Source: a virus. From it: a stretch of DNA of 22,055 nucleotides. Numbering within the stretch: position 1 is the stretch's first letter; each line of letters opens with the position of its first letter. The DNA is taken from positions 1 through 22,055 of IMG/VR virus record IMGVR_UViG_3300020436_000111. One strand, given 5' to 3'. Position numbers and translations under genes: made by a program. Shown here in pieces: positions 920-22,055 of this stretch. Under the pieces are notes generated by a model. The model was given only the letters and a program-made list of their open reading frames with translations, was not told where the DNA came from and did no database searches.

Positions 920-1984
920 ATGGCTATTGATTTCAAAACCTTCAACACTGTTGCTCCGCTGGTTGCGGATGCACGATACCCGGTCTTGCTCCGTGGTCGC
1001 CATGGTATTGGTAAATCTTGCGTGGTTTATCAGTTCGCCAAGACAGTGGGTCTTCCCGTTGTTGAGCGTCGCGCATCGCAGATGACCGAAGGTGACCTTG
1101 TTGGTTTGCCTGTCATCGATGAGGTTCGCGGAACCACTACTTTCAATCCTCCTGACTGGTACAAGGCAGCTTGTGAAGCGCCTGTGGTGCTGTTCTTGGA
1201 TGAGGTTGACCGAGCTACTCCAGAGGTCCGACAGGGCATCTTCGAGTTGACCGACTCGCGTAAGCTAAATGGTCATGCTCTCCACGAGGATACTCAGATC
1301 TTCGCTGCTGTTAACGGTGGTGAGCACGGTGCTGAATATCAGGTTGGGGAAATGGACCCAGCCGAGCTTGACCGTTGGACGGTCTACGATATTGAGCCTA
1401 CCGTTGAGGACTGGCTTGATTGGGCTAAGGGTAATGTTGAAGAGGTCGTTTGGGACTTCATCAATCAGAACCGTGGTCACCTTGAGCACAAAGAGGCTTT
1501 CGAGCCTAATAAAAAATACCCTTCGCGTCGTAGCTGGGACCGCTTCTCGCAAACGGTTCAAAAGGGTGGGCTCTTCGGTGAGACTCCAGAGTTCGGTTTG
1601 CTCTTCAACGTGGCAACTGGGTTTGTCGGGTTTGAGGCTGCGGTTGCCTTCACTGACTTCGCCAAGAACTGGGAACGTCAGGTGACTGTGGATGACATCC
1701 TTGAGGGCAAGGTCGAAAAGACCGCTGACTTCACCATGAATGAGCACTGTGCTCTGATTGAGAAAGTTGGTGCTTCGGGTCGAATCGAGGCTGGTCTTGA
1801 GGACTCCGAGCTTGAAGCTCTGGGTGCCTACTTCATCGCGATTCCGGGTGAAGCGGCTATGAAGCTCTGGAACACGGTTGCTAGCGCTGATAAGGACGCC
1901 ACAATCAAGCTCCATGGGTGCGTGGTTGATGGGGTTAAGGTCGGTGACCACCTCACTAAGCTCTTGGTTGGCGATAACGCCTAA
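920..1984 (+). CDS. MoxR-type AAA+ ATPase
   Basis: A 354-residue cytoplasmic AAA+ protein. Walker A is GRHGIGKS at residues 26-33 and Walker B is VVLFLDEVD at about 89-97 (D94, E95), followed by a sensor-1 asparagine in FAAVNGG. The conserved block around DLVGLP and the motif FNPPDW between the Walker boxes are typical of MoxR/RavA-like ATPases, which act as chaperones that remodel or insert metal into VWA-domain partners. The start is set by GGGAGG nine bases upstream. The next gene encodes a metallopeptidase-like/VWA protein, the usual neighbour of MoxR proteins, so the two probably act as a pair. It has its own promoter (834) and a terminator (1994). The exact phage role is unknown. The family call is strong and the substrate is inference. 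Confidence 0.88.
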   Translation: MAIDFKTFNTVAPLVADARYPVLLRGRHGIGKSCVVYQFAKTVGLPVVERRASQMTEGDLVGLPVIDEVRGTTTFNPPDWYKAACEAPVVLFLDEVDRATPEVRQGIFELTDSRKLNGHALHEDTQIFAAVNGGEHGAEYQVGEMDPAELDRWTVYDIEPTVEDWLDWAKGNVEEVVWDFINQNRGHLEHKEAFEPNKKYPSRRSWDRFSQTVQKGGLFGETPEFGLLFNVATGFVGFEAAVAFTDFAKNWERQVTVDDILEGKVEKTADFTMNEHCALIEKVGASGRIEAGLEDSELEALGAYFIAIPGEAAMKLWNTVASADKDATIKLHGCVVDGVKVGDHLTKLLVGDNA

Positions 1985-1993
1985 AGTCGGGTG

Positions 1994-2033
1994 GCGAGGG
2001 GAAGAAAAAAAAGACTTCCCCTTGTCGCTTTTT
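1994..2033 (+). terminator. hairpin terminator with A-rich loop
   Basis: GGGGAAG (1998-2004) pairs with CTTCCCC (2015-2021). An outer GCGA/TCGC helix (1994-1997/2025-2028) extends it, and five T follow (2029-2033). It lies directly after the MoxR stop codon. Its loop is a run of eight A that also sits where an UP element of the next promoter (-35 at 2036) would be. Confidence 0.7.
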
Positions 2034-2035
2034 CC

Positions 2036-2064
2036 TTGACATTATAGCCTATTTATGGTGTAAT
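2036..2064 (+). promoter_or_regulatory. sigma70-type promoter P3 for the VWA gene
   Basis: TTGACA (2036-2041), a 17-base spacer and TGTAAT (2059-2064), then ATGTAAGGAGG. The downstream word contains the ribosome site of the next gene. Same design as the promoter at 834. It overlaps the end of the preceding terminator. Confidence 0.8.
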
Positions 2065-2091
2065 GACAATGTAAGGAGGTTCTGAGAGAAC

Positions 2092-3321
2092 ATGACTTTT
2101 GATTTGAACATGCACGTTACTCGATTGCTCCGCGATGAGCCCTTCTTCGCTGAGTTGTCGCGGAAGATGGATAAGCGGTCCAGCAAGACCATTCCTACTG
2201 CTGGTGTTCGGGTTAACCCTGATACTGCCCAGTTCGAGATGCTTTACAATCCTGAGTTCTTTCAAGGACTTACAGACGCCCAGCGAAAGGGTGTCCTAAT
2301 TCACGAGTTCTACCATTGTGTGTTCCAGCACGTCACTGAGCGTAAGCCTGACAATGTGGATCCCAAAGAGTGGAACATCTGCGCTGACCTTGCTATCAAC
2401 GATATCATTGGGGCTGTTAACCTGCCTGATGGCTGCTGCGTTCCCGGCGTTGGTCCGTTCGCTGAGTACCCTCACAAGAAGACTGGTGAGTGGTATGTCG
2501 ATTTCCGTAAGAAGCTCCGTGACGAGAACGAGCAGGAAGGTGGCAATGGCGAAGGTCAGGAAGGTGCTGGTGAGCCCGGAGAAGCCGGTGGAAAACCCAA
2601 TGGAAACGAGGGGTTAGGAGAGGGCGATGGAGCCAACTTCGATAGCCACGATGACTGGGGTGACAACGGCGGTGCTGATGCTGCTACCCAAGAGATTGCC
2701 AAAGAGCGCCTTAAGGAACATTTAAAAGATGCTGTCCAAGAGGGCACTAAGAAAGGCTTCGGGTCGGTTTCGGCTGAGGTAAGAAAAGATATTATTGAAA
2801 AGCTGACTCCCAAGGTTGATTGGAAAAAGGTGCTTCGATACTTCGTTAAGACCTCTACCAGAGCCCATAAGAGCAGTACGGTAAAGCGGGTTAACCGACG
2901 ATACGCTTACATCCATCCCGGTCGCAAGGTAAATCGGACGGCTAATATTGCAGTCAGCATCGACCAGAGTGGGTCGGTTAGCGACCAAATGCTTGCAGCG
3001 TTCTTCAGTGAGCTAAACAAGCTGAGTGAGCTAGCAGAGTTCACGGTTATTCCCTTCGATACCAAGGTTGCCGAGGATAAGGTCTACGTCTGGAAGAAGG
3101 GTGAGAAGAAGAAGTGGGAACGAGTGCTCTACGGAGGTACCTGCTTTGAGGCTCCTACTGACTATGTGAATAAAGGAAATTTTGATGGTCACATTGTCCT
3201 GACTGACATGTGCGCTCCCAAGCCTAAGAAGAGCCGTGTGCAGCGCATGTGGATGACTGATGGGTACAATGCTAAGAACCCTTACTTCAAAACCAACGAG
3301 AAGGTGATTGCTGTCGACTAA
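2092..3321 (+). CDS. DUF2201-like metallopeptidase / VWA protein
   Basis: 409 residues in three parts. The N-terminal domain carries HEFYH at residues 71-75 (HExxH zinc motif) after a short YNPEFF segment, as in the DUF2201 putative metallopeptidases. A low-complexity linker of Gly, Glu, Asp and Asn runs from about 147 to 190. The C-terminal domain is VWA-like, with DQSGSVS at 291-297 (MIDAS DxSxS), followed by YGGTCF and LTDMCAP as likely further MIDAS residues. VWA proteins with MoxR ATPases form metal-dependent remodelling pairs, and the adjacent upstream MoxR gene supports this. The start follows AAGGAGG about 15 bases upstream, further than usual. Its own promoter lies at 2036. Substrate unknown. 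Confidence 0.85.
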   Translation: MTFDLNMHVTRLLRDEPFFAELSRKMDKRSSKTIPTAGVRVNPDTAQFEMLYNPEFFQGLTDAQRKGVLIHEFYHCVFQHVTERKPDNVDPKEWNICADLAINDIIGAVNLPDGCCVPGVGPFAEYPHKKTGEWYVDFRKKLRDENEQEGGNGEGQEGAGEPGEAGGKPNGNEGLGEGDGANFDSHDDWGDNGGADAATQEIAKERLKEHLKDAVQEGTKKGFGSVSAEVRKDIIEKLTPKVDWKKVLRYFVKTSTRAHKSSTVKRVNRRYAYIHPGRKVNRTANIAVSIDQSGSVSDQMLAAFFSELNKLSELAEFTVIPFDTKVAEDKVYVWKKGEKKKWERVLYGGTCFEAPTDYVNKGNFDGHIVLTDMCAPKPKKSRVQRMWMTDGYNAKNPYFKTNEKVIAVD

Positions 3322-5806: not shown

Positions 5807-6040
5807 ATGAGCGACGAAAACGACAAAGTTGAAAGTTATGCGGCTGCAATAGGAGCCGGTTTGGTTACGCTAGTATTCTTGCTAGCGTTTAGTCTTTATC
5901 TATTCCCTTGGATTATCCCATTTATCTGGGAACTACCCGAAGGTATGACGCCTGCATACTACGGAATCCTGCTTGCACTGGAGATGTCTGGTTTAGCTAA
6001 TAAATGGAAGCAAGCAAAAATGGATTACGAGGAAGAATAG
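5807..6040 (+). CDS. 77-residue membrane protein
   Basis: The start ATG 5807 follows AGGAG. An acidic soluble N-terminus (MSDENDKVESYA) is followed by a long hydrophobic stretch, about residues 13-41, with WIIPFIW at its end, then a possible second weak span (YYGILLALEM) and a charged tail KQAKMDYEEE. Probably one or two membrane spans. The N-terminal extension of this frame (from 5780) lacks a ribosome site. No family recognised. Confidence 0.65.
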   Translation: MSDENDKVESYAAAIGAGLVTLVFLLAFSLYLFPWIIPFIWELPEGMTPAYYGILLALEMSGLANKWKQAKMDYEEE

Positions 6041-6075
6041 GCAATTTACCTGTAAAAAAATTTTTAGAGGCGCGA

Positions 6076-6630
6076 ATGAACGATAAAAAAATAGATACGG
6101 ACATTGTTTGGGCTCCATGGATGCGAATTATGCTTCATGGGGCTGATTGTCTTGTAACACCAAGTGAGCCTGTCGAAGAATTTAATTCTGACTTAACCGA
6201 GTTGGCTCTCGACATGGGTCGAACTATGTATGCTGCGGGCGGCATCGGGTTAGCTGCTCCGCAAGTAGGTCACAACGTGCGGCTCATCGCTGTTGACTGC
6301 TCTCCCGATCAAGATGATATTCAATATCTTGTAAACCCCGAGATTGTTTCCTATGATGGTCACACTAATGGTGACGAAGGTTGTCTTTCGTTTCCGGGTC
6401 TTTCACTTACGGTAAGAAGACATAAGAACATTGAAGTCAAAGCGCAAAACTTAAAAGGAGAAGAGATCCGAATAAGTGCCGGTGGTTTGTTGTCTATTTG
6501 TATTCAACATGAAATTGACCATCTTGACGGAATCACATTCATTCAAAGAGTTAGTAGGCAAGTAAGGCGTGCCAACATGCGAAAGTGGGAACCAATGAAG
6601 ATATTAGAGGTGCAAAATGGAGACTATTGA
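6076..6630 (+). CDS. def: peptide deformylase
   Basis: A 184-residue metalloenzyme that removes the formyl group from the N-terminal formylmethionine of new proteins in the cytoplasm. All three family motifs are intact: GIGLAAPQ (56-63), EGCLS (101-105) and QHEIDH (144-149). These give the metal ligands C103, H145 and H149, the catalytic E146 and Q63. The length is close to bacterial enzymes, whereas many phage versions lack the C-terminal helix; here the tail extends about 35 residues past HEIDHLDG. Start 6076 follows AGAGG by five bases; the upstream extension overlaps the previous gene without a ribosome site. Marine phages often carry def, presumably to keep maturation of phage or photosystem proteins going. 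No host-specific clue is visible here. Confidence 0.93.
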   Translation: MNDKKIDTDIVWAPWMRIMLHGADCLVTPSEPVEEFNSDLTELALDMGRTMYAAGGIGLAAPQVGHNVRLIAVDCSPDQDDIQYLVNPEIVSYDGHTNGDEGCLSFPGLSLTVRRHKNIEVKAQNLKGEEIRISAGGLLSICIQHEIDHLDGITFIQRVSRQVRRANMRKWEPMKILEVQNGDY

Positions 6631-10164: not shown

Positions 10165-10866
10165 ATGAAGGAAATTGAACTAATAAAAGAAAGATTACCA
10201 CAAATCAAAAAGAAGGGATTCATTGCTTCTTTAAGAAAAGGTAATACAGGAATTGGTTACACTTTTGAGTGCTTGTTCGGTATTGAAGAAAACAATGACT
10301 CAGGCGCAGATCTTAATGGTAAAATTGAATTTAAAGCAGCACGAAAAAACCGCTCATGCCGTACATCAAGTTTTACCCAAGCTCCGATTTGGCATTTTGA
10401 AATCAGAGATATCATAAAAAAATATGGTAAACAACATCCAGAAGATTTAGATCGTGTAAACTGGTACCCATCTCTAAATAACGATGTTAATCCATCAGGA
10501 CTAATCTTAAATATTCAGGATGGGGAGCTTCAGATAGTAGACCAAAAAGACGGAAACGTTTTGGGCTCTATTCCTATCTCTGTTTTACAGTATCGTTTTC
10601 GACAAAAATTAGACAAGCTACTTTTAGTATATGCTGATACAAAAAAGATTGACGGCGTAGAATATTTTCATTATAATGAGGCTTACATGTGCCAGTTTCC
10701 AAGCACTGATAGTATTGAATCGCTTATTAATGAAGGAAAGCTGGTTGTTGAACCTCGTTGTCATCTATTTAAATCAACAGGTAAAGTTCGTGACCGTGGC
10801 GTTGCATTTAGGATGAAAGGCGAGTATCTTAAAGATCTTTATTCAAGCGTGGAAAAAGTGATATGA
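10165..10866 (+). CDS. MvaI/BcnI-family endonuclease
   Basis: 233 residues. The N-terminal third carries the family pattern: GFIASLRKGNTGIGYTFE (18-35), LFGIEEN, then GADLNGKIEFKAAR with the likely catalytic D49, E55 and K57 (PD-(D/E)xK type), then SSFTQAPIW. The C-terminal region RCHLFKSTGKVRDRGVAFRM fits the substrate-binding end of MvaI/BcnI (MutH-related) enzymes, which cleave or nick short double-strand sites. No methyltransferase is in the window, so the host or phage DNA must be protected another way, or the enzyme acts as a nickase or in host DNA breakdown. The ribosome site is weak (GGA). The stop overlaps the next start (ATGA). Confidence 0.75.
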   Translation: MKEIELIKERLPQIKKKGFIASLRKGNTGIGYTFECLFGIEENNDSGADLNGKIEFKAARKNRSCRTSSFTQAPIWHFEIRDIIKKYGKQHPEDLDRVNWYPSLNNDVNPSGLILNIQDGELQIVDQKDGNVLGSIPISVLQYRFRQKLDKLLLVYADTKKIDGVEYFHYNEAYMCQFPSTDSIESLINEGKLVVEPRCHLFKSTGKVRDRGVAFRMKGEYLKDLYSSVEKVI

Positions 10867-11773: not shown

Positions 11774-12049
11774 ATGAAAAAGTTATTTTTCGCTTGCATA
11801 TTTGTTTTTTCTTTGATAGGATGTGATTTGCATAGTCATCATCATCCGCATCCTTCACCGGACTCATATTCATCTTATCAATATTATACATATGATATGT
11901 GTTGGGGAGATGAAGAACCTTTTTGGGGATATCCAGATTATTGTGATTACCACTGTTGTACTTGGTATGTGGGCGATGGATGTTGGGAAGAATGGTGTTA
12001 TTTTGATAAAACATGTGGATGGGAATATTATCAAGGATGGTGTTATTAA
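11774..12049 (+). CDS. Cys/Trp/Tyr/His-rich lipoprotein
   Basis: 91 residues with a strong AGGAGG site. The signal peptide (KKLFFACIFVFSLIGC) has lipobox LIGC. The mature protein starts with a His-rich segment (HSHHHPHP), then a Ser/Tyr stretch, then about 50 residues dominated by Trp, Tyr, Asp and Cys, with eight cysteines besides the lipidated one (motifs DMCWGD, DYCDYHCC, DGCWEEWCYF, KTCGW, GWCY). Even cysteine spacing suggests up to four disulphides in an exported protein; the His segment may bind metal. I recognise no family. It may be displayed on the host surface, for example to exclude other phages, but that is speculation. Confidence 0.65.
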   Translation: MKKLFFACIFVFSLIGCDLHSHHHPHPSPDSYSSYQYYTYDMCWGDEEPFWGYPDYCDYHCCTWYVGDGCWEEWCYFDKTCGWEYYQGWCY

Positions 12050-12660: not shown

Positions 12661-12770
12661 TGAAGTTTTTACACAGATTAAAAAACTTATTCAATAAATC
12701 GCATTGTTGCTGCTGCTGTGGGTGCTGTGGTTGTCAAAACTGCCTCGGTAAATGCAACCCGGAGGCATAG
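12660..12770 (+). CDS. 36-residue cysteine-cluster microprotein
   Basis: ATG 12660 overlaps the previous stop (TAATG), so it is probably coupled. The N-terminus is basic and helical (MKFLHRLKNLFNKSH). Residues 16-32 contain ten cysteines (five in a row, then GCCGC, QNC, LGKC), followed by a four-residue tail. TGT and TGC codons are mixed, with Gly, Gln, Asn and Lys codons interspersed, so this is not a simple repeat. The next gene's GGAGG lies in its last codons. It could bind Zn, Cu or an Fe-S cluster like a metallothionein, or be acylated. No family recognised. Confidence 0.6.
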   Translation: MKFLHRLKNLFNKSHCCCCCGCCGCQNCLGKCNPEA

Positions 12771-12771
12771 T

Positions 12772-13011
12772 ATGAAAATTAGCAAGAAACAATTAAAACA
12801 AATTATCAAAGAAGAGCTACAGCTAGAGAGAAAGGGTATGTTCTTAGAGGTGCTTGAAGAGGCTATCATGGCGACCGTTCAGAGAGAATTCGCCTCTTAT
12901 AACTGGCCTCCTGAACAATGGGCTCAGTTAAAGGCTGACATTCAGAAAAATGGTTTGGACCTTACTCAGCAAGTTTTAGCACTAATTGAACAAAAGGAAG
13001 CCAGTGAATGA
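12772..13011 (+). CDS. tagged small protein 1 (MKI...IIKEEL N-terminus)
   Basis: 79 residues after GGAGG, starting MKISKKQLKQIIKEELQLE. The following three genes start with nearly the same peptide but then differ completely, which indicates a shared targeting or processing signal rather than gene duplication. The remainder is helical with WPPEQWAQLKADIQKNGLDLTQQVLALIE. It ends with an ATGA overlap into the next gene. I infer a virion-internal protein; see the finding on the tag. Confidence 0.65.
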   Translation: MKISKKQLKQIIKEELQLERKGMFLEVLEEAIMATVQREFASYNWPPEQWAQLKADIQKNGLDLTQQVLALIEQKEASE

Positions 13012-13208
13012 AAATTGCAAAGAAACAACTTAGTCGGATCATCAAAGAAGAGCTTATGAAAGAAGTCGAAGAGTCTCCAGAAATACATGACGACGAGACA
13101 AAGACTATTCTTAAAGATTTAGTGAATAACATGCAAAATAAATTTAACGTCTCGGAAGAGGATGCCCTAGAGGCTATATCCAAGATGCTCCGATACATGG
13201 AAAAATAA
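13008..13208 (+). CDS. tagged small protein 2
   Basis: 66 residues beginning MKIAKKQLSRIIKEELMKE, start overlapping the previous stop (ATGA). The rest is acidic and helical (SPEIHDDETKTILKDLVNNMQNKFNVSEEDALEAISKMLRYMEK, read in segments 28-48 and 49-66). No homology to its neighbours beyond the N-terminal peptide. Function unknown; packaging with the head is inferred. Confidence 0.65.
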   Translation: MKIAKKQLSRIIKEELMKEVEESPEIHDDETKTILKDLVNNMQNKFNVSEEDALEAISKMLRYMEK

Positions 13209-13223
13209 AAGGATTTTTATAAA

Positions 13224-13448
13224 ATGAAAATTACAAAAGCAAAACTCAAACAAATTATTAAAGAAGAGCTTGAATTAACTAATGAAGATAAACAAGTTTC
13301 CAGCATGATTAATTCCTTAGAGCAGATTGGAGACGAAGTAAGTAAAGCTCATAAAATGGCAGGCGACCCAAACATGATTCAAAGCCTAGAGATGATTGAT
13401 GGTCTAATCACAAAACTGCATGACGAGATGAGTGATCTTCTTATGTAA
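13224..13448 (+). CDS. tagged small protein 3
   Basis: 74 residues beginning MKITKAKLKQIIKEELELT, with AAAGGA upstream. After the peptide the protein is an acidic helical hairpin (SSMINSLEQIGDEVSKAHKM, then MIQSLEMIDGLITKLHDEMSDLLM). Together with its neighbours it forms a cassette of unrelated small proteins behind the same peptide. Confidence 0.65.
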   Translation: MKITKAKLKQIIKEELELTNEDKQVSSMINSLEQIGDEVSKAHKMAGDPNMIQSLEMIDGLITKLHDEMSDLLM

Positions 13449-13460
13449 TCGGAGGTTGAT

Positions 13461-14327
13461 ATGAAAATCACCAGAAAGCAACTAGAAAATTTAATCCGCG
13501 AAGAACTCCAGATTGAGAAGCTCGTTGGAAAAGGAATTGCCAAAGGTCTTATTCAAGATCTAGAAGAATTAAACCGCACTCTTGGTCTGTTTGATGCTAC
13601 TTCTTTGCAAAAATTTCCAGATGTTCATCAAGAGCTAATTCAGTTGGCTGGCGACGTCTCGAACAAATTGAGATATATCAAAGATTCTAAAAGACAGTTC
13701 AGGGAAGGTCAGGGGTCAAACCAAGAAGAGATAAATAAAATTTTAGATCTCATAGAAAATGATCCCGAATTTCAAATCCTAGGACAATTTAAAGACAAGT
13801 TCTTAAAATATACGCAAAGCGGAGGTGATCCACTTTCCGCTCTAGAGGCTGCATCTCCAGAAAGGCGTCCGGTGCAAAAGGCGCTTGAAAAATTAAGAAC
13901 AGCGATCAGACCATCGGGACCAAAGACTCCCATGGGTATGCCTGTCATGGAAAACAAATCCAAAAGAGATTCTTTAAAAAAAATCATTTTAGAAGAGCTA
14001 CAAGAGGTTTGTGGTATGTCACAGGATGCAGCAGCCGTAACTCTTCCAAAAGACCATTCTATGGACTCTCAAGAGGGTGAGAGCGTCATGGCAAAAGGAT
14101 CTCTTCATCACGCGATTAAGTCGGCTCAACAAATCGATTCTGTTCTCGGTGATGACGTAGATCTGCCGGAATGGGTCGAAGCAAAACTTACAAAAGCTGC
14201 TGACTATCTGGGTATCGTGAGTGACTATCTTACTTACAAAGATTCCCGAGGTGCAATGCCCGCAGCATCCATGGACGTACCAAAACCTGTCCAGCCTCCG
14301 CTTGACCCTCCTAAGTTCGGCACATGA
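13461..14327 (+). CDS. tagged two-part virion-type protein
   Basis: 288 residues after GGAGG, beginning MKITRKQLENLIREELQIE. A first helical region ends near residue 150. A Pro/Met-rich linker leads to a second, internal copy of the tag (SLKKIILEELQEV, 171-183). The last domain contains HHAIKSAQQIDSVL and LPEWVEAKLTKAADYLGIV (235-253), a block (LPEWV-x-[AS]-K-[IL]-TKA-x-DY) that I know from structural proteins of marine T4-like phages. The internal tag suggests that two separate modules are delivered or released from one chain. The C-terminus is Pro-rich. Confidence 0.65.
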   Translation: MKITRKQLENLIREELQIEKLVGKGIAKGLIQDLEELNRTLGLFDATSLQKFPDVHQELIQLAGDVSNKLRYIKDSKRQFREGQGSNQEEINKILDLIENDPEFQILGQFKDKFLKYTQSGGDPLSALEAASPERRPVQKALEKLRTAIRPSGPKTPMGMPVMENKSKRDSLKKIILEELQEVCGMSQDAAAVTLPKDHSMDSQEGESVMAKGSLHHAIKSAQQIDSVLGDDVDLPEWVEAKLTKAADYLGIVSDYLTYKDSRGAMPAASMDVPKPVQPPLDPPKFGT

Positions 14328-14777: not shown

Positions 14778-14840
14778 TTGAATAGAGCCTTTAAACAGCA
14801 ATTTACCAATGTCTCCCAAGGGAGATATTACAATGAGTGA
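14778..14840 (+). CDS. possible 20-residue leader peptide
   Basis: A TTG at 14778 lies eight bases after AGGAG (14765-14769), followed by 20 codons (MNRAFKQQFTNVSQGRYYNE) ending in TGA at 14838-14840, five bases past the tubulin ATG at 14833. Translating it would open the hairpin at 14812-14825 that hides the tubulin ribosome site, giving translational coupling. TTG starts occur at several other genes here. The protein itself has no recognisable features. Confidence 0.4.
   Translation: MNRAFKQQFTNVSQGRYYNE
14812..14825 (+). promoter_or_regulatory. hairpin covering the tubulin ribosome site
   Basis: TCTCCC-AA-GGGAGA is a perfect palindrome; the mRNA would fold as CTCC/GGAG with a four-base loop. 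The 3' half is the Shine-Dalgarno site of the ATG at 14833. Unlike the hairpins at 9864 and 12227, both arms lie downstream of the promoter motif, so it acts on every transcript. Confidence 0.6.
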
Positions 14841-15885
14841 ATTTGATAACGATTTTGATTTTATTGACCACTATGGTTCAGACATGGAGGTTGCCAATGA
14901 AGAGCAACTACCAGACAATGAAGCACCCTCAGCAATCAACTGTGGATTTGTTGGAGTTGGTGGAGGTGGTGGAAAACTCGCCAAAGCATTTTTAGACCTT
15001 GGGTTCAACAAGACTCTTCTAGTTAACACAACAGAGAAAGACCAGCCAGATGGTGTTGATGAGGCACACCTAGTTTTGATTCCTGATGCCGATGGCGTTG
15101 GTAAAGACGTTGAGTTCGGAAAGAAGGTACTTAAGGATAACAGTGCAGTTGTTGAGGATGCCCTGAGAACTAAGCTAGGCAAGGTAGACTGGCTTTTTGT
15201 GTTCGCAGGTGGTGGTGGCGGTACAGGCTCTGCTAGTGGCGCTTTACATCCAGTTTTTGAGCGTTATTTAGAATCAATCGAAGCAGATGGATGTGTTGTT
15301 CATGTTGTTACGGTGCCTTCCGCACAAGAATCGCTCAACAGCACCATCAAGAAAAATGCTAATACGCTTTTAAATGACGTATCTGAAGCTCCACATATTG
15401 TGTTGAGCAACGAGAAGCAATTACAACTGCTAAGAGGTAAGGTTGGAATGCTGAATATGTATTCCCTAGCAAACTCGACATTTGCAAAGCTGTTTCACCA
15501 AGTTTTAAAACTTGCAAACGAGCACTCTCCAATTCAGACTTTTGATTCTAAAGATTTGGATCGATGCCTCAAAACCAAAGGGCGAACCTTTGTTGGGTCG
15601 ACCGTGGTTCCAGACCCAAGTATCGCTAGCTTGGGTGCAACTATTCTTCAGAATTGTTTGAAGAGATCGCCGTGCCCGCCTCCGCGTGGTAAATCGCAAA
15701 CTGGTTCTCTCCTTCTGGTTGTTACGCCAGAAATGGCGGATGACCCTGAAATCAGCAAGCATCTTGAGGCTGCTATTTCATACGTCGGTTCCAGAACCTC
15801 GACTCTGTTTTCGGGCGTATATGTCAGAGACAACTTGCCCGGTCTTATTGCGATAATGACCATGAACGGAGTTGATTGGGAATAA
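14833..15885 (+). CDS. tubulin/FtsZ-family GTPase
   Basis: 350 residues. An acidic N-terminal extension (about 35 residues) precedes the GTPase domain. GFVGVGGGGGKLAKAF (38-53) matches the first nucleotide loop of FtsZ/TubZ. GGGGGTGSASG (126-136) is the tubulin signature. TVPSAQESLN follows. FDSKDLDRCLK (237-247) stands in the T7-loop position with D238, D241 and D243 as candidate catalytic acids. The end MNGVDWE is short, without the long acidic tail of PhuZ. Phage tubulins (PhuZ in phiKZ-like phages, TubZ in plasmid-like phages) form filaments that centre or move phage DNA. Whether this one does the same is inference. Start 14833 follows GGGAG; ATG 14809 is an alternative. The stop overlaps the next ATG (TAATG). 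Confidence 0.85.
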   Translation: MSEFDNDFDFIDHYGSDMEVANEEQLPDNEAPSAINCGFVGVGGGGGKLAKAFLDLGFNKTLLVNTTEKDQPDGVDEAHLVLIPDADGVGKDVEFGKKVLKDNSAVVEDALRTKLGKVDWLFVFAGGGGGTGSASGALHPVFERYLESIEADGCVVHVVTVPSAQESLNSTIKKNANTLLNDVSEAPHIVLSNEKQLQLLRGKVGMLNMYSLANSTFAKLFHQVLKLANEHSPIQTFDSKDLDRCLKTKGRTFVGSTVVPDPSIASLGATILQNCLKRSPCPPPRGKSQTGSLLLVVTPEMADDPEISKHLEAAISYVGSRTSTLFSGVYVRDNLPGLIAIMTMNGVDWE

Positions 15886-18800
15886 TGCTGGAAATTAAGA
15901 ACCTTAGCGAAAAAGATCTGAAAGAGACAGAAGCTATTTTAAAAAAGTTTGTGCCTTACGCACAAAAACAGCTTGGGTATGACCAACCTGTTAAGTTGAT
16001 GTTTATTTCAGATCCTGATAACGCTACAAACCCTCTGGGTAAAACGGCACACTATCAACCGGGAACAAAAGTTGTCACAGTGTATGTTGATGATCGACAC
16101 CCCAAAGATATTATGCGAAGCGTGTCACACGAGCTTGTTCATCATGCACAAAATTGTAGAGGAGAATTTGACAAAACTCCTGCGATGGGTGATGGATATG
16201 CTCAAGCTGATGAGCACTTAAGAGAAATGGAAAGAGAAGCCTACGAAAAGGGAAATCTTATATTTAGAGACTTTGAGGACGGTTTAAAGACAAACGATAA
16301 AGAAATGACTATTTATATTGACGATTCTTCGGGCGAAGCTCCCGCTAATCTCTATGAGGAAAAAAAAATGAAAAAAACTAACTTTGGATTGAATTCGCCC
16401 CACGCAAAATGGCAGGCGTTTTTGCTTAATGAGCGAACTGATAAAAGAAAAGCAGCTTGGATGCAGGCATTTCAAAATGCTGCTGGAAATCCACAGCCAC
16501 CTCCCCGAGATTTCTGGGATACTGCGACCTATCTTTACAGCAAAGGCGACGATCCAGTAGAAGCTGGTAAACAGTATGCTGCTAATAATATGAACGAGGC
16601 ACTTCCCGACCACCTAAAAAAGCACTTTCGTGATGACGGGTCTTCAGTTCATTCACCACAAGTTAAAGACGTTACCCCTCCCGGCTATGGACCTGATAAT
16701 CGCGGAGATAGGAATGTAGACATAATCGGATCGCTCGTGAACCAGCATGGTTTCATGAATGTCCGAGAACCACTTGAGCAGATGGGCTTTACAGTAGACT
16801 TTGTTACTGAACCTCTCCCCATGTATAACCTCACGAAAGATGGTGTGAAGTATGCAGCACTAAACAAGAAGTATGTCGAAGATCCTGACCTTGTTGTCGG
16901 AGATACTGCGATTGGAGCGATGAACGAGAGCATTCAAGAAGGCTTGACCGTTGATGGAAAGCAACTTAACGTTGGCGATATGGTTCAGGTCACTGGTGGT
17001 GGTGCTCGCGGCGCTACTGGAGAAATTATTGAATTCGCAGAGGGAAAAGCCGTTGTTCGTCTTGAATCCGACGCAGATAGGCGATTGTTTGGTCAAGCTA
17101 CCGACGAGATTATTGTAAGAGGCGAACATCTTGCTCTTATGGGTGGCATGAACGAACAAGGCGATGATAGAGAATTTAATGTTGGCGATGAAGTTATAGC
17201 TAACGGCTACCCCGGTTATATCACTGATTTAAGTATCCCCGGAATGGCAACGGTGAAATTAGGTAGAGGGGAGACTACCGTATCAACCAAATATGTGCAT
17301 AAGAAAGACGACAAAGACAAACAGATTAAAGAAATGTATGGAGAGGATGAAGATTACTTCATGGAGCTTGAGAAAGAATTCCCGTTCCTGTCCAAAGCAG
17401 TCAAGGCTGGCGAGGTCCCTGAAGAAGTCGCGGCTGAGATTGCCAAAGAATATGGAGACAAAGATGAAATGCCAAGCGGAGAGCAACTCAAAGAATCTCT
17501 TCGTCGCGTTGTCAAAAGAGTCTTGATGGAGAAAATGGATCCTGTCGGAAAAGAAGATGGTGACGTCGACAACGACGGTGACGAGGATTCGTCTGATAAG
17601 TATCTCAAGAAGCGTCGTGAGGCTGTTGGCAAAGCGATGCAAAAAGAAAGCCAAGGCGGCGAACAATGGTATGAAGTATACGACGAAGAGTCTGGTAAAT
17701 CATTAGAAATCTGGGCTTCTTCTATGGAAGAGGCAGAATACAAAAGCGAAGAAATCGATTATGATGAATATCGAGATGGACAAGCAGTCATGGCAACAAA
17801 AAATATGGCTGAAGAACTCAAAGGCGGTCAGAAAAAGCTAGATACTGACGGCGATGGTGATATTGGCGCAGACGATCTTGCCAATCTTCGAGATAAAAAA
17901 AAAGCTAAAAACGAGGTCTACAGCAAAAGAGCAGTATTAGAAGCTGTTATCCGAAAGACTCTCGTTGGTGAAGAAATTGACCCTAGTCAATTCCCAAATC
18001 CATTACCTCCCGGCATGAAAGGGGAAGACTTTTTATCTAAAGGCATGAGAGATGGAAGTAAGGGTGATGATGTAGTGCAAGCCGGTGCAAAATCAATCGC
18101 TGCACAAGACGCAAAACCCTCTCAAAGTGCAATTTATCTTGGAAAGGCTCTTGGCATGGCAGTTGGTGGGGTAAAGGGCGGAAATATTAACGCTCTTATT
18201 TCAGCAGACAATTATATTCTAGACGGACACCACAGATGGGCTGCAACAATGTTTGCAGACCCTAGTGCTGCGATATCTGGAACTGGAATTGGGATGCCAA
18301 TGACAGAATTAATTCCAGTTTTAAGAGCGGCTGGTGATGCTTATGGTAATGCCAGACGTGGTGAGCCTTCCGGGGGAGACGTGAATATATTTAAAGCATC
18401 TCTTGAAGATGCTAAAAAGGCTATTGAGAAAATTGATGGCGGAACTAAATTTACTAAACCCGGAGCGGCGGGACAGTGGCTTCAAAGTATTGGTGGAGAG
18501 CAAGAGCTTGCAAAAAGACTCGATGCAATTAAAGCAAAAGGAGGAGAAGCAGCTTCTGCACCGCCAAGAAACGAAATGCCAGTTATTGATGCAGACAAAG
18601 GTGACGATAAGAACGTTGCCATGAGATTAAACAAAGGCGCAATTGATGTAAAGCCGCCATACGCAGACGACCCAGATGCGGGAAAGAAAAAGGAGCCAAG
18701 AGCTATGGAAGAATCAAGAAAAAATAGAGTCCATAATGAGAAATATGATCTTTTAATGGAAAGAATGTTGGGAATTAAACCAATCAGCCCCCTAAGTAGC

Positions 18801-19001
18801 AGAAATAACTGGCTCTTAGAGGAGGAAGGCAAAGATGAAGAGGATGACAGTAACAATCCAATGGGCTACTGTGACGAAAGACAATTTATGTCTGCTCAAG
18901 AAGCTGAAAAGGAAAAGGAAAAGTCCGAAAACGACGGCAATTATTCCGAATCAGAAATTGAAGCTATGGCAAAACACCCTAAAGACTTAAAAAACAACTA
19001 A
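15885..19001 (+). CDS. 1038-residue multidomain protein with zincin, KOW, EF-hand and ParB/Srx-like parts
   Basis: ATG 15885 overlaps the tubulin stop, so it is coupled. Order of parts: zincin-like domain with HELVHH (82-87, HExxH) and likely third ligand in REMEREAYEKG (113-123); a Pro-rich middle region; KOW-like segments starting VGDMVQV (363) and VGDEVIA (433); tag-like peptide ESLRRVVKRVLMEK (537-550); Asp-rich EF-hand/dockerin-like loop (558-568); a short beta domain; a second, canonical EF-hand loop DTDGDGDIGADD (653-664); tag-like peptide AVLEAVIRKTLVGEE (683-697); a domain with ILDGHHRW (778-785) as in ParB/sulfiredoxin-like proteins; and a charged tail. The mosaic, with tag peptides between parts, looks like a polyprotein that could be cut by the prohead protease. 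Homologous zincin and DGHHRW modules occur in marine phages, to my recollection. Confidence 0.75.
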   Translation: MLEIKNLSEKDLKETEAILKKFVPYAQKQLGYDQPVKLMFISDPDNATNPLGKTAHYQPGTKVVTVYVDDRHPKDIMRSVSHELVHHAQNCRGEFDKTPAMGDGYAQADEHLREMEREAYEKGNLIFRDFEDGLKTNDKEMTIYIDDSSGEAPANLYEEKKMKKTNFGLNSPHAKWQAFLLNERTDKRKAAWMQAFQNAAGNPQPPPRDFWDTATYLYSKGDDPVEAGKQYAANNMNEALPDHLKKHFRDDGSSVHSPQVKDVTPPGYGPDNRGDRNVDIIGSLVNQHGFMNVREPLEQMGFTVDFVTEPLPMYNLTKDGVKYAALNKKYVEDPDLVVGDTAIGAMNESIQEGLTVDGKQLNVGDMVQVTGGGARGATGEIIEFAEGKAVVRLESDADRRLFGQATDEIIVRGEHLALMGGMNEQGDDREFNVGDEVIANGYPGYITDLSIPGMATVKLGRGETTVSTKYVHKKDDKDKQIKEMYGEDEDYFMELEKEFPFLSKAVKAGEVPEEVAAEIAKEYGDKDEMPSGEQLKESLRRVVKRVLMEKMDPVGKEDGDVDNDGDEDSSDKYLKKRREAVGKAMQKESQGGEQWYEVYDEESGKSLEIWASSMEEAEYKSEEIDYDEYRDGQAVMATKNMAEELKGGQKKLDTDGDGDIGADDLANLRDKKKAKNEVYSKRAVLEAVIRKTLVGEEIDPSQFPNPLPPGMKGEDFLSKGMRDGSKGDDVVQAGAKSIAAQDAKPSQSAIYLGKALGMAVGGVKGGNINALISADNYILDGHHRWAATMFADPSAAISGTGIGMPMTELIPVLRAAGDAYGNARRGEPSGGDVNIFKASLEDAKKAIEKIDGGTKFTKPGAAGQWLQSIGGEQELAKRLDAIKAKGGEAASAPPRNEMPVIDADKGDDKNVAMRLNKGAIDVKPPYADDPDAGKKKEPRAMEESRKNRVHNEKYDLLMERMLGIKPISPLSSRNNWLLEEEGKDEEDDSNNPMGYCDERQFMSAQEAEKEKEKSENDGNYSESEIEAMAKHPKDLKNN

Positions 19002-19012
19002 GGAGCTATAAC

Positions 19013-19333
19013 ATGTCGGATTTATATGATAAAATGACAAGAAGATTCGCAAAAGCAGTGCTTTTGAAAGAAGAAGTTGAATTTGATAATTCTGAAATTG
19101 ATTTATTCTTAGAAAACTTTGAAAAAGGTGGAATGTCTGCACAAATACAGGCAATATTTGAAGTAATGAATCAAGTTCGGCTAGGCTCTAACCGAGATAG
19201 GAACAGAATGGCTCTAGCAATGGAAAATATGAAGAAAGTTAGACGTCATGTCAAAAGGCTGGAGGAGCAAGTTGTTGTTCTTCAAGAGCAAGTGTCTATT
19301 TTGGAAGAGAATAACTCCAAAAAGGGAGAATGA
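19013..19333 (+). CDS. coiled-coil protein
   Basis: 106 residues after AAGGAG. The N-terminal half is mixed (YDKMTRRFAKAVLLKEEVEF, EIDLFLENFEKGG). The C-terminal third is a clear heptad coiled coil (RHVKRLEEQVVVLQEQVSIL). It sits between the two giant multidomain proteins and presumably shares their transcript. It may be a small scaffold or adaptor. No family recognised. Confidence 0.65.
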   Translation: MSDLYDKMTRRFAKAVLLKEEVEFDNSEIDLFLENFEKGGMSAQIQAIFEVMNQVRLGSNRDRNRMALAMENMKKVRRHVKRLEEQVVVLQEQVSILEENNSKKGE

Positions 19334-19339
19334 TATTTC

Positions 19340-22055
19340 ATGTCATCAGATGTAATGCAAGAAGGTGGTTTAGGTGGTCACATGGACCATCTATACGACA
19401 ATCCAAGCCTCTCTTTTGGAGAAATGAAGGAAATATTCCAACTTGCAGCGTCTGGTAAGCTCGAAGGCACCCAAAAGCTCGACGGTCAGAATATTTTTAT
19501 CACCTATTCGCTGAAAAGAGGTCGAGCATTTGCCGCACGCAATAAAACAAACCTAAAATCCGGTGGAATGAGCGGTGAACAACTTGCATCGAAATTTGAA
19601 GGAAGAGGAGCGCTTCAAAAAGCATTTGTTGATGCATTTCAAGCCTTTGAAGAGGCGGTATCTTCGTTTTCGGAACAAGAGATTATAGATTCCTTTGGAG
19701 AAGACGGAGATATCTACTATAGTGCTGAAGTTATCGATCCCGGCAACCCGAATGTCATTGATTATGATGAAAAAGTTCTTAATATTCATCGCGGTGGTCA
19801 TGGAAGGGTCGAGAAAGGCACTGGAGCGGTCACAGCTACGGCTGAAACGGACGATATGCAAAAATCTTCGGTCGCGCTTGATGCAGCAATTTCAAAAATT
19901 GAAAATTTAAAGCAATCTAACAACTTTAAAGTTCAAAGAGGTGCCTTGACCACTCTTCAGTCCGTAACGGACGGTAAACACGCACAGACGGCTATCTCAA
20001 GGCTTGATTCTGTTGTGGGAGGAGATGCAGAGACTGTTGGCGAGTTTGTAATCAAAAAACTGAAACCGATCGTAGCTCAAAAGGTTAAATTATCAAAAGA
20101 TAAAGAAAAACAAGTCATAGGAAAAATGTTGGGACAAAAAGGTCTTAATATTAAAAAAATAAGAGCGGATCTGACACCAGAAGAACAACAAGCGGTAGGA
20201 GAATTAATATCTCAATCAAAAATGATATTGAAACAGATTATCGCGCCGATTGAAGATATTGTACATGATTTTGCAGTAGATGCCCTACAAGGTTTGCAAA
20301 GTATTTACATGCTCGGAGCACAAGATAAAAAAGTTGCAAAAATTAGAGATAAAGTCGCATCTGAAATTTCAGCTATTGAAGGATCCGGTGATGATGTTAG
20401 CATTGGCAAGCTAAAACGACAACTTGAAAAAATGAAATATGCCGAAAAAGGCTTGGAAGGAATCACGACCGCATCTGAAGGTTTTGTTTTCGACTATAAC
20501 GGACATACTTATAAATTGACAGGTAATTTTGCTCCAATTAACCAGATTTTGGGAATGTTGAAATATAAAGGCAAAGGGGGAGAACAAAAAATGAATGAAT
20601 CAAACGGAAAAGGCAAAGGAATCGCTCTTGTTCCCGGCGGGTTCAAGCCTCCTCATGCTGGTCATTATCAATTAGCCGCTTGGGCTGGTTCTCAGCCGGG
20701 AGTGGACCGAGCTATTGTCTTAGTATCTCCCAAAGCAAGAGGTCCGGTTGACGCTCAAAAGTCTATGCAAATCTGGGAAGTTTATAAATCACTCGGAGCC
20801 AACTTTGACGTTCAGATTAGCGGAATTGCGTCCCCTGTAGGTGCTACATACGAGTATGTTGATAATCAAGCACAACCGGGAGATACAATATTTGTTATCA
20901 AAGGCGAAAAAGATGCTGGAGATAAAAGATTCGAGCGGATGAAGGGTAGAAAAGAAGGCGTCGAGGTAAAAGAGTTAACTTCTCCAACATTTGCCGGTGG
21001 TGTTAGTGGGACACAGATGAGAGGATTCATTACATCTGGTGACGCTAATTCTTTTCAGGCTGCTCTACCTGACGGATTGTCTCAAGAACAAAAAAACAAA
21101 GTATGGGAAATAGCATCTGAAGGTTCAGTTAATCTTAATGAATATTTGGAAATGGTCGTTAAAGAAACAATCAATGAAGATATGTACAAAGCATTTGGTG
21201 ATCTTGCTGTTGCAGCATCCAGTACAGAGGCAGGAGGGGAAACTGACAAAGCTGTTCTTGATACCGCCAGACCCTTCTTAGAGGGCGAGGAAGACATAGA
21301 AGAATTTAAAAGTCGCCTTAAAGAATATTTTATGGGGATAATTAATGAAAAGAAGTTTGGAAATAATCTTGAATTAACTGAAATGTCATCTATGGCTGGT
21401 GGTTCTATGGAGGGAGGCGGATCCGCGTGGACAAATTTCGACAAAGAAGAAAATGAAAAAGAAAAACCGGGAGGAAACATAATGGAGTTTAAAACATATT
21501 CCAGAAAAGATATCATTGAAGAGATGATGTTGAGAGAGAACATTAGAAATACTATCAAAAAAGTCAAAAAAACGAAGTTGAATGAATCTAAGAAAATATC
21601 CGCTCTTCGCAGTCTTGTAAAACAGCTTATCTTAGAGGCTGATGAAGTTGCTCCGCATCAATCAACTGGTATTAATGTCTTAGAGGATTTGCTCAAGAAA
21701 ATTGTACCTCAGATTGAAGGCGACTACAAAACGTTAACGACTAGTAAAGAACAAAGAGACTCCTTCCGGGCGCATGTTCTCAATGCAACAGAAAATGCAA
21801 TCGCACCAGTATCAGCAACTCCTGATCGTGAAGGAGAATCTGATGAGGAAGAAATTGAGCCAATTGAAGAAATAGAAATAACTGTTGGTTCTGGAGATTC
21901 TGAAGAAGAGGTTGATGCTGGAGATATTACTAGTTTCGATGATGATGAAAAATTAATTGATATTGGAAATATGGGAGGACAACAAGACGATGGCGGTTTT
22001 CAAGAGCTAGAGGGACAAGAAGCTACAGGTCGTAATGTCGCAAATATGAGTTTCC
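19340..22055 (+). CDS. ligase-like / NMN-adenylyltransferase-like fusion, 3' end outside window
   Basis: The frame is open from ATG 19340 to the window end (905 codons), after GGGAG about a dozen bases upstream. N-terminal domain: KLDGQN (46-51) as motif I of covalent nucleotidyltransferases (K46 the candidate lysine), and EGFVF (380-384) with YKLTG (391-395) as motifs IV and V, separated by a helical insertion. Second domain: GGFKPPHAGHY (433-443, HxGH at 439-442) and SGTQMR (556-561), hallmarks of NMN adenylyltransferase/cytidylyltransferases. The tail is acidic, with looser matches to the tag peptides (about 721-744 and ALRSLVKQLILEADE at 755-769), then SKEQRDSFRAHVLNATE. Similar chains occur in marine T4-like phages, to my memory. 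Ligase activity is unproven; NAD synthesis or RNA repair are possible roles. Confidence 0.75.
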   Translation, partial: MSSDVMQEGGLGGHMDHLYDNPSLSFGEMKEIFQLAASGKLEGTQKLDGQNIFITYSLKRGRAFAARNKTNLKSGGMSGEQLASKFEGRGALQKAFVDAFQAFEEAVSSFSEQEIIDSFGEDGDIYYSAEVIDPGNPNVIDYDEKVLNIHRGGHGRVEKGTGAVTATAETDDMQKSSVALDAAISKIENLKQSNNFKVQRGALTTLQSVTDGKHAQTAISRLDSVVGGDAETVGEFVIKKLKPIVAQKVKLSKDKEKQVIGKMLGQKGLNIKKIRADLTPEEQQAVGELISQSKMILKQIIAPIEDIVHDFAVDALQGLQSIYMLGAQDKKVAKIRDKVASEISAIEGSGDDVSIGKLKRQLEKMKYAEKGLEGITTASEGFVFDYNGHTYKLTGNFAPINQILGMLKYKGKGGEQKMNESNGKGKGIALVPGGFKPPHAGHYQLAAWAGSQPGVDRAIVLVSPKARGPVDAQKSMQIWEVYKSLGANFDVQISGIASPVGATYEYVDNQAQPGDTIFVIKGEKDAGDKRFERMKGRKEGVEVKELTSPTFAGGVSGTQMRGFITSGDANSFQAALPDGLSQEQKNKVWEIASEGSVNLNEYLEMVVKETINEDMYKAFGDLAVAASSTEAGGETDKAVLDTARPFLEGEEDIEEFKSRLKEYFMGIINEKKFGNNLELTEMSSMAGGSMEGGGSAWTNFDKEENEKEKPGGNIMEFKTYSRKDIIEEMMLRENIRNTIKKVKKTKLNESKKISALRSLVKQLILEADEVAPHQSTGINVLEDLLKKIVPQIEGDYKTLTTSKEQRDSFRAHVLNATENAIAPVSATPDREGESDEEEIEPIEEIEITVGSGDSEEEVDAGDITSFDDDEKLIDIGNMGGQQDDGGFQELEGQEATGRNVANMSF

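Follow-up and report, generated by a model that had tools for sequence, protein, structure and literature searches.

A composite gene and its ortholog

The viral DNA analysed here (IMG/VR record IMGVR_UViG_3300020436_000111, positions 1 to 22,055; hereafter the window, 22,055 nucleotides) carries on its forward strand, at 15885-19001, a gene that we call P0001, with an ATG start and a stop-free frame for a chain of 1038 amino acids. Its ATG overlaps the stop codon of an upstream FtsZ/tubulin-like gene (14809..15885, +; GGGGGTGS motif, TIGR00065 at 1.2e-11), of a kind found in 82 marine viral loci. A first-pass annotation, made from the DNA letters alone, had described one chain with zincin peptidase, KOW-like, EF-hand-type and DGHHRW segments, and this is confirmed in the open frame, where all the motifs it listed could be located: HELVHH at residues 82-87, barrel-like segments starting at 361 and 431, EF-type loops at 560-571 and 653-664, DGHHRW at 780-785, and tag-like peptides at 536-549 and 680-697. 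At least two biochemically unrelated domains are therefore carried by one chain.

The comparison of loci shows the predicted protein to be a mosaic, made by fusion of two conserved neighbourhoods: a cassette of peptidase gene, small gene and NMN adenylyltransferase (NMNAT) gene, and a T4-type head cluster. The modules are otherwise separate, with the zincin, the first EF-hand-type module (EF1) and the DGHHRW domain each standing alone in other marine viral loci. Module scans of the other fetched loci gave 84 peptidase-only, 87 EF1-only and 89 DGHHRW-only open reading frames (ORFs), and the fusion was seen only in the window and in locus L004. The latter (L004:4403-7018) holds a syntenic ortholog of 871 amino acids with the same peptidase/DGHHRW fusion and the same flanking genes, on an independent contig from another metagenome and at ~60% identity. 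Both proteins have the peptidase, part of a middle region, a tag before the DGHHRW domain, that domain itself and a C-terminal tail. The KOW and both EF modules are absent from L004, and a module of the form DYxxxLExEFPxLxKAV...AKEYG (17346..17462, +) has moved, lying at residues 491-529 of P0001 and at 268-304 of the L004 ORF (ORF numbering). Because of these absences and this displacement, the history of the predicted chain is one of module shuffling, in which spacer modules come and go while both ends stay.

Modules of the chain

The zincin peptidase module covers residues 20-137 (15942..16295, +). In a 46-row alignment its HExxH motif and a downstream Glu are invariant (H82, E83, H86 and E116), which makes the predicted zincin assignment strong, and a module search found it in at least 467 viral loci. 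Its nearest Pfam families are DUF6647, M91 and MPTase-PolyVal, all of them weak: the published polyvalent MPTase family PF18818 matches nine of the 46 members (best E=0.0026), DUF6647 being nearer at 6.7e-7, and a profile search against the PDB gave no match. Sixty loci have both a peptidase gene and an NMN-adenylyltransferase-like gene, and in 55 of them the two are at most ~0.7 kb apart or form one ORF. The gap between the two in relatives usually fits one small gene, and the order in the window is identical: a 106-amino-acid gene (19013..19333, +), its spacing conserved in relatives, separates P0001 from a KxDG domain fused to an NMN adenylyltransferase-like domain (19340..22055, +; NCBIfam nicotinate-nucleotide adenylyltransferase, 1.8e-5), which runs past the window end. 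A relative of the peptidase module also occurs in L362 (5001-5279), from the Prochlorococcus single cell AG-409-L21, possibly a phage contig or an infected cell.

At the other end, the DGHHRW (ParB/sulfiredoxin-like) domain occupies residues 701-928 (17985..18668, +). Q747 and D780-W785 are invariant in all rows of a 43-row alignment and the module search found at least 420 viral loci, so that its standing as a predicted family is strong. Links to the ParB/sulfiredoxin fold are weak (ParBc_2 at E=0.0031 in 2 of the 43; SerK 5x0j at E=0.061). As judged by these profiles, the zincin and ParB-like domains of P0001 are too diverged for placement in published polyvalent families. The C-terminal tail that follows (18669..18998, +), with the motif YDLLMERMLG, is conserved in the L004 alignment and had no Pfam or PHROG family match.

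Between the two ends lie several spacer modules. The middle region (residues 145-348; 16317..16928, +) was seen only in the window and L004 by a sliding search, and neither Pfam nor PHROG gave it a notable family match. A first KOW/SH3-like segment (16965..17075, +) matches KOW7_SPT5 at E=5.7e-4 as an excised piece, below the Pfam cut-off, and has a relative in L049, which gives moderate support to the putative assignment. For a second (17175..17294, +), which has no Pfam match, the assignment is weak and follows from its likeness to the first (shuffle p=0.026). The barrel-like C-terminal piece of the cyanophage protein T4-GC190 matched neither segment (shuffle p 0.27 and 0.73). Several KOW/SH3-like pieces were also noticed in the 735-kb phage LR756501 (L003), in a 485-amino-acid reverse-strand ORF and a forward ORF from 2096, where repeats of the DPYGEEDWE..KINEG type separate the pieces and a T4-like start, YKQFINEG, is present.

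EF1 is a dockerin-like single EF-hand module (DPVGKEDGDVDNDGDEDSSDKYLKKRREAVGKAM; 17535..17654, +; phrog_4359 at 8.5e-13), found in at least 529 viral loci by the module search. Five loop positions are near-invariant in 90 distinct rows (Asp/Asn at 1, 3 and 5, Gly at position 6, Asp/Glu at position 12), and the case for a loop with conserved putative calcium-ligand positions is strong. The second EF-hand-type loop (KKLDTDGDGDIGADDLANLRDKKKAK; 17826..17909, +; EF-hand_6 at E=0.016) is a moderately supported candidate: it matches a gene of L256 that precedes the major capsid gene, in scaffold position, and none of 2000 shuffles equalled the match. Calcium had been proposed as a signal on entry to the host, which we find unsupported; since these Asp-rich loops are also present in many other marine phage proteins, including that of the scaffold-position head gene, the comparison suggests a part in assembly or structure and not a host-entry sensor.

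The choice of search mattered for these results. A scan of viral contigs with the whole of P0001 gave zero matches, as the patterns chosen missed widely shared modules, whereas alignments made module by module succeeded. Most EF1 family members escaped BLAST, probably because of low-complexity filtering. When all fragments were aligned at full length, the DGHHRW rows were placed wrongly, and that alignment was left unused.

Head-gene context

One clade of loci (L245-L251 and L256) has a prohead protease gene immediately after the FtsZ-like gene, and then a DGHHRW gene. In the best-read FtsZ-like clade the order is portal, other genes, FtsZ-like gene, prohead protease, DGHHRW gene and, later, scaffold-position gene and major capsid gene, with portal, protease and capsid confirmed by PHROG. 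Relatives of these genes thus stand in a late, virion-gene context. Of 12 related records, 11 contain a prohead protease of family S77. In the relatives' records where the peptidase and the head cluster were both located, 75-100 kb separate them. A tubulin-like gene within a T4-type head cluster looks unusual.

Targeting-type tags

Four adjacent genes upstream in the window (12718..14327, +) start with MKI(S/A/T)(K/R)..L..(I/L)I(K/R)EEL, one of three N-terminal tag types that recur in the fetched loci. Among 4,394 distinct genes the three types number 113, 113 and 64 cases, against 1.4, 1.8 and 2.0 in shuffles; the patterns were composed after examples had been seen, and these counts therefore describe the tag types and do not test them. 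A hydrophobic-x-Glu ending at fixed spacing is found in 83% of cases of the LLLENWRKFLxE type and 34% of the IIKEEL type, and by definition in the T4-like FxxFInE type. In stand-alone DGHHRW proteins a tag often comes directly before the domain, and N-termini such as MKSFKSFVTE and MKSLNEFLNEA are of the capsid-targeting type.

The tag-like peptides at two junctions of P0001, which the first-pass annotation had singled out, are both present, but taken singly each is weak. One (SKRAVLEAVIRKTLVGEE, residues 680-697; 17922..17975, +) stands directly 5' of the DGHHRW domain, and 14 of its 18 residues are identical in L004, whereas the linker before it diverges. The other is a tag-like basic helix (PSGEQLKESLRRVVKRVLME; 17472..17531, +), with a per-window p of 4e-5 against the C-terminal tag profile. 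An additional stretch, MNEALPDHLKKHF (residues 236-248; 16590..16628, +; per-window p 3.5e-5), is like the C-terminal tags of stand-alone peptidases; residues 535-547 and 236-248 both resemble the C-terminal basic helix of those proteins (whole-protein shuffle p 0.0035), and an equally good internal window was found in 2 of 77 other long proteins. Hydrophobic-x-Glu sites inside the chain are VLME, ending at residue 549, and LVGE, ending at 696. Taken together, these peptides are weak to moderate candidates for internal tags.

Comparison with known systems

The closest parallels are the polyvalent proteins, for which zincin processing and head packaging have been proposed or shown (PMC5512222); their prototype, DdrB of phage P1, joins a zincin to a ParB domain and is processed before packaging (Iyer et al. 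2017, PMC5512222). Like them, P0001 is one chain of unrelated domains, including a zincin and a putative ParB-type domain, in a virion-gene context, and release of parts by proteolysis has been proposed for both. It differs in the weak relationship of its zincin and ParB-like domain to the families described so far, and in its addition of EF-hand-type modules, candidate capsid-targeting-type peptides and a T4-type head cluster.

In T4 itself, capsid targeting sequences direct cargo into the head and gp21 cuts after Glu (PMC9026906). The likeness to the T4 proteins IPI-IPIII and Alt consists in the hydrophobic-x-Glu tags on neighbours and stand-alone relatives of P0001 and in the S77 protease of related genomes; unlike them, P0001 has internal tag-like peptides, no N-terminal tag, and many modules instead of one domain. 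In the phages SPN3US and phiKZ, head proteins that are ejected are likewise cleaved by the prohead protease behind a short motif with a final Glu (PMC10052503). The cuts mapped there take off N-terminal propeptides, or the C-terminus of the protease itself, and do not release several separate domains.

Cyanophages bring the comparison closer to the window. The nucleotidyltransferase T4-GC190 of S-SM1 was detected in purified virions (Sullivan 2010, PMC3037559). It starts with MKKFSAFLNE followed by A, and its gene has a KxDG gene on one side and SSM1_191, which encodes an EF1 module, on the other; S-SM1 and S-SSM5 thus have tagged GC190 beside these two as separate genes, and, unlike P0001, the sequences read there include no peptidase or DGHHRW module. 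In Flavobacterium phage immuto_2-6A (immuto), gp183 is an NMNAT fused with a P0001-type peptidase module (46% identical where the two match). In gp192 (L002:17070-19595) a clear internal tag (per-window p 1.6e-5) comes after an EF1 module. Neither was found to have a DGHHRW domain, and their fusion partners differ from those of P0001. Of the proteins compared, gp192, from a cultured phage, is the one best suited to testing for internal cutting.

Packaging and the fate of the chain

Short hydrophobic-x-Glu tags are frequent in these phages and a tagged nucleotidyltransferase is found in S-SM1 virions, and P0001 is therefore most likely head-packaged cargo. Packaging, already suggested by the first-pass annotation, is a sensible reading of the T4-type head-gene neighbourhood, the cassette with a virion-detected homologue and the likeness to polyvalent proteins, of which P0001 is most likely a T4-type counterpart. 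In its full form, we lean slightly towards the view that P0001 is a fused, head-packaged cargo of a T4-type marine phage, acting like a polyvalent protein via the T4 internal-protein route.

Several observations weigh against this view. The virion-detected S-SM1 protein is homologous to the NMNAT gene next door and not to P0001, so that, by analogy, it is the neighbourhood rather than P0001 itself that would be linked to virions. P0001 starts with MLEIKNLSEKDLKE, where none of the three N-terminal tag types is seen, and thus lacks an N-terminal tag. Scanning the whole protein with the N-terminal tag profile gave no significant internal tag (p=0.087), and the p of 0.0035 with the C-terminal profile is modest and one among several profiles tried. 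Furthermore, no prohead protease was seen in the window, a 22-kb fragment.

The comparison shows how the fusion arose. An ancestral peptidase gene, which as a rule precedes the small gene and the NMNAT gene, came to lie beside the FtsZ-like gene of a head cluster and was joined in frame, via barrel and EF-hand-type modules, to the DGHHRW gene usually resident there. Terminal targeting tags of the formerly separate proteins were probably retained as internal joints, although the statistics for this are weak. The chain would then probably enter the prohead core through its tags and core-type EF modules, where a gp21-like prohead protease would trim or cut it after hydrophobic-x-Glu; the zincin could be an alternative cutter. 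It would then be ejected with the DNA, and the zincin and the ParB-like domain would act on host targets.

Cutting into several effectors, which the first-pass annotation had favoured, is only plausible, because the internal tag-like peptides are weakly significant. A rather unlikely alternative to it, though the foremost among the rivals, is that P0001 is packaged or head-associated yet uncut, as a large multidomain ejection protein whose tag-like helices are docking peptides only. The N4 virion RNA polymerase, its MPTase domain included, is packaged unprocessed (PMC5512222), and both the weak internal tag matches and the L004 spacer, which varies while the end modules remain fused, agree with this; against it stand the fixed-distance hydrophobic-x-Glu endings of tags in the same phages, the S77 prohead proteases of related records and the processing of P1 DdrB, the closest domain analogue (PMC5512222). 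We consider it improbable that P0001 is left unpackaged, as a late cytoplasmic enzyme complex or as a head assembly factor whose modules aid scaffold assembly. The second EF loop, held in common with the scaffold-position gene, and the adjoining FtsZ-like and head genes would suit an assembly role, but stand-alone DGHHRW relatives have capsid-targeting-type N-termini and the neighbouring enzyme family is present in virions (PMC3037559). An assembly chimera, or a mis-called ORF merging two genes, would be in keeping with the distance between both ends in relatives, but is rejected as extremely improbable because both the fusion and its neighbours recur in the syntenic ortholog L004, a strong counter-argument given its independent origin and divergence.

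If P0001 is indeed a fused head-packaged cargo, it links two formerly separate ideas, the T4 capsid-targeting route and the polyvalent effector protein. Each tag type has more than 60 N-terminal cases where chance would give about 2, and the tags could serve as a sequence rule for predicting which of the many unknown proteins in marine T4-type phages are carried in the head. For uncultured phages the packaged proteome would thereby become predictable, and cultured relatives, immuto and S-SM1 among them, would allow the predictions to be tested. A wider and tentative idea, to which we give less than even chances, is that marine T4-type phages load large enzyme sets into the head by three kinds of tag, and that some lineages fuse cargoes into true polyproteins in which old terminal tags serve as internal cut sites, one chain delivering as separate pieces a protease, an enzyme of ParB-like type and EF modules that bind the core.

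Other genes in the window

Further upstream, the window encodes at 920-3321 an AAA ATPase (phrog_1297, 8e-49) and, after it, a metallopeptidase/VWA protein of DUF2201, resembling a MoxR-VWA pair, and a peptide deformylase (6004-6630; NCBIfam 1.5e-44). The product of 7412-8056 matches the LeuA allosteric dimerisation domain only (Pfam 3.5e-9), without the catalytic part, and 10165-10866 is a MvaI/BcnI-type restriction endonuclease gene carried by a phage (Pfam E=2.2e-37; PADLOC REase_II 3.4e-26). Finally, 11774-12049 encodes a Cys/Trp/Tyr-rich protein of 91 amino acids with a lipoprotein-like start (MKKLFFACIFVFSLIGC), and a similar Cys/Trp-rich protein is encoded near the FtsZ-like gene of L252 (13522-13821).

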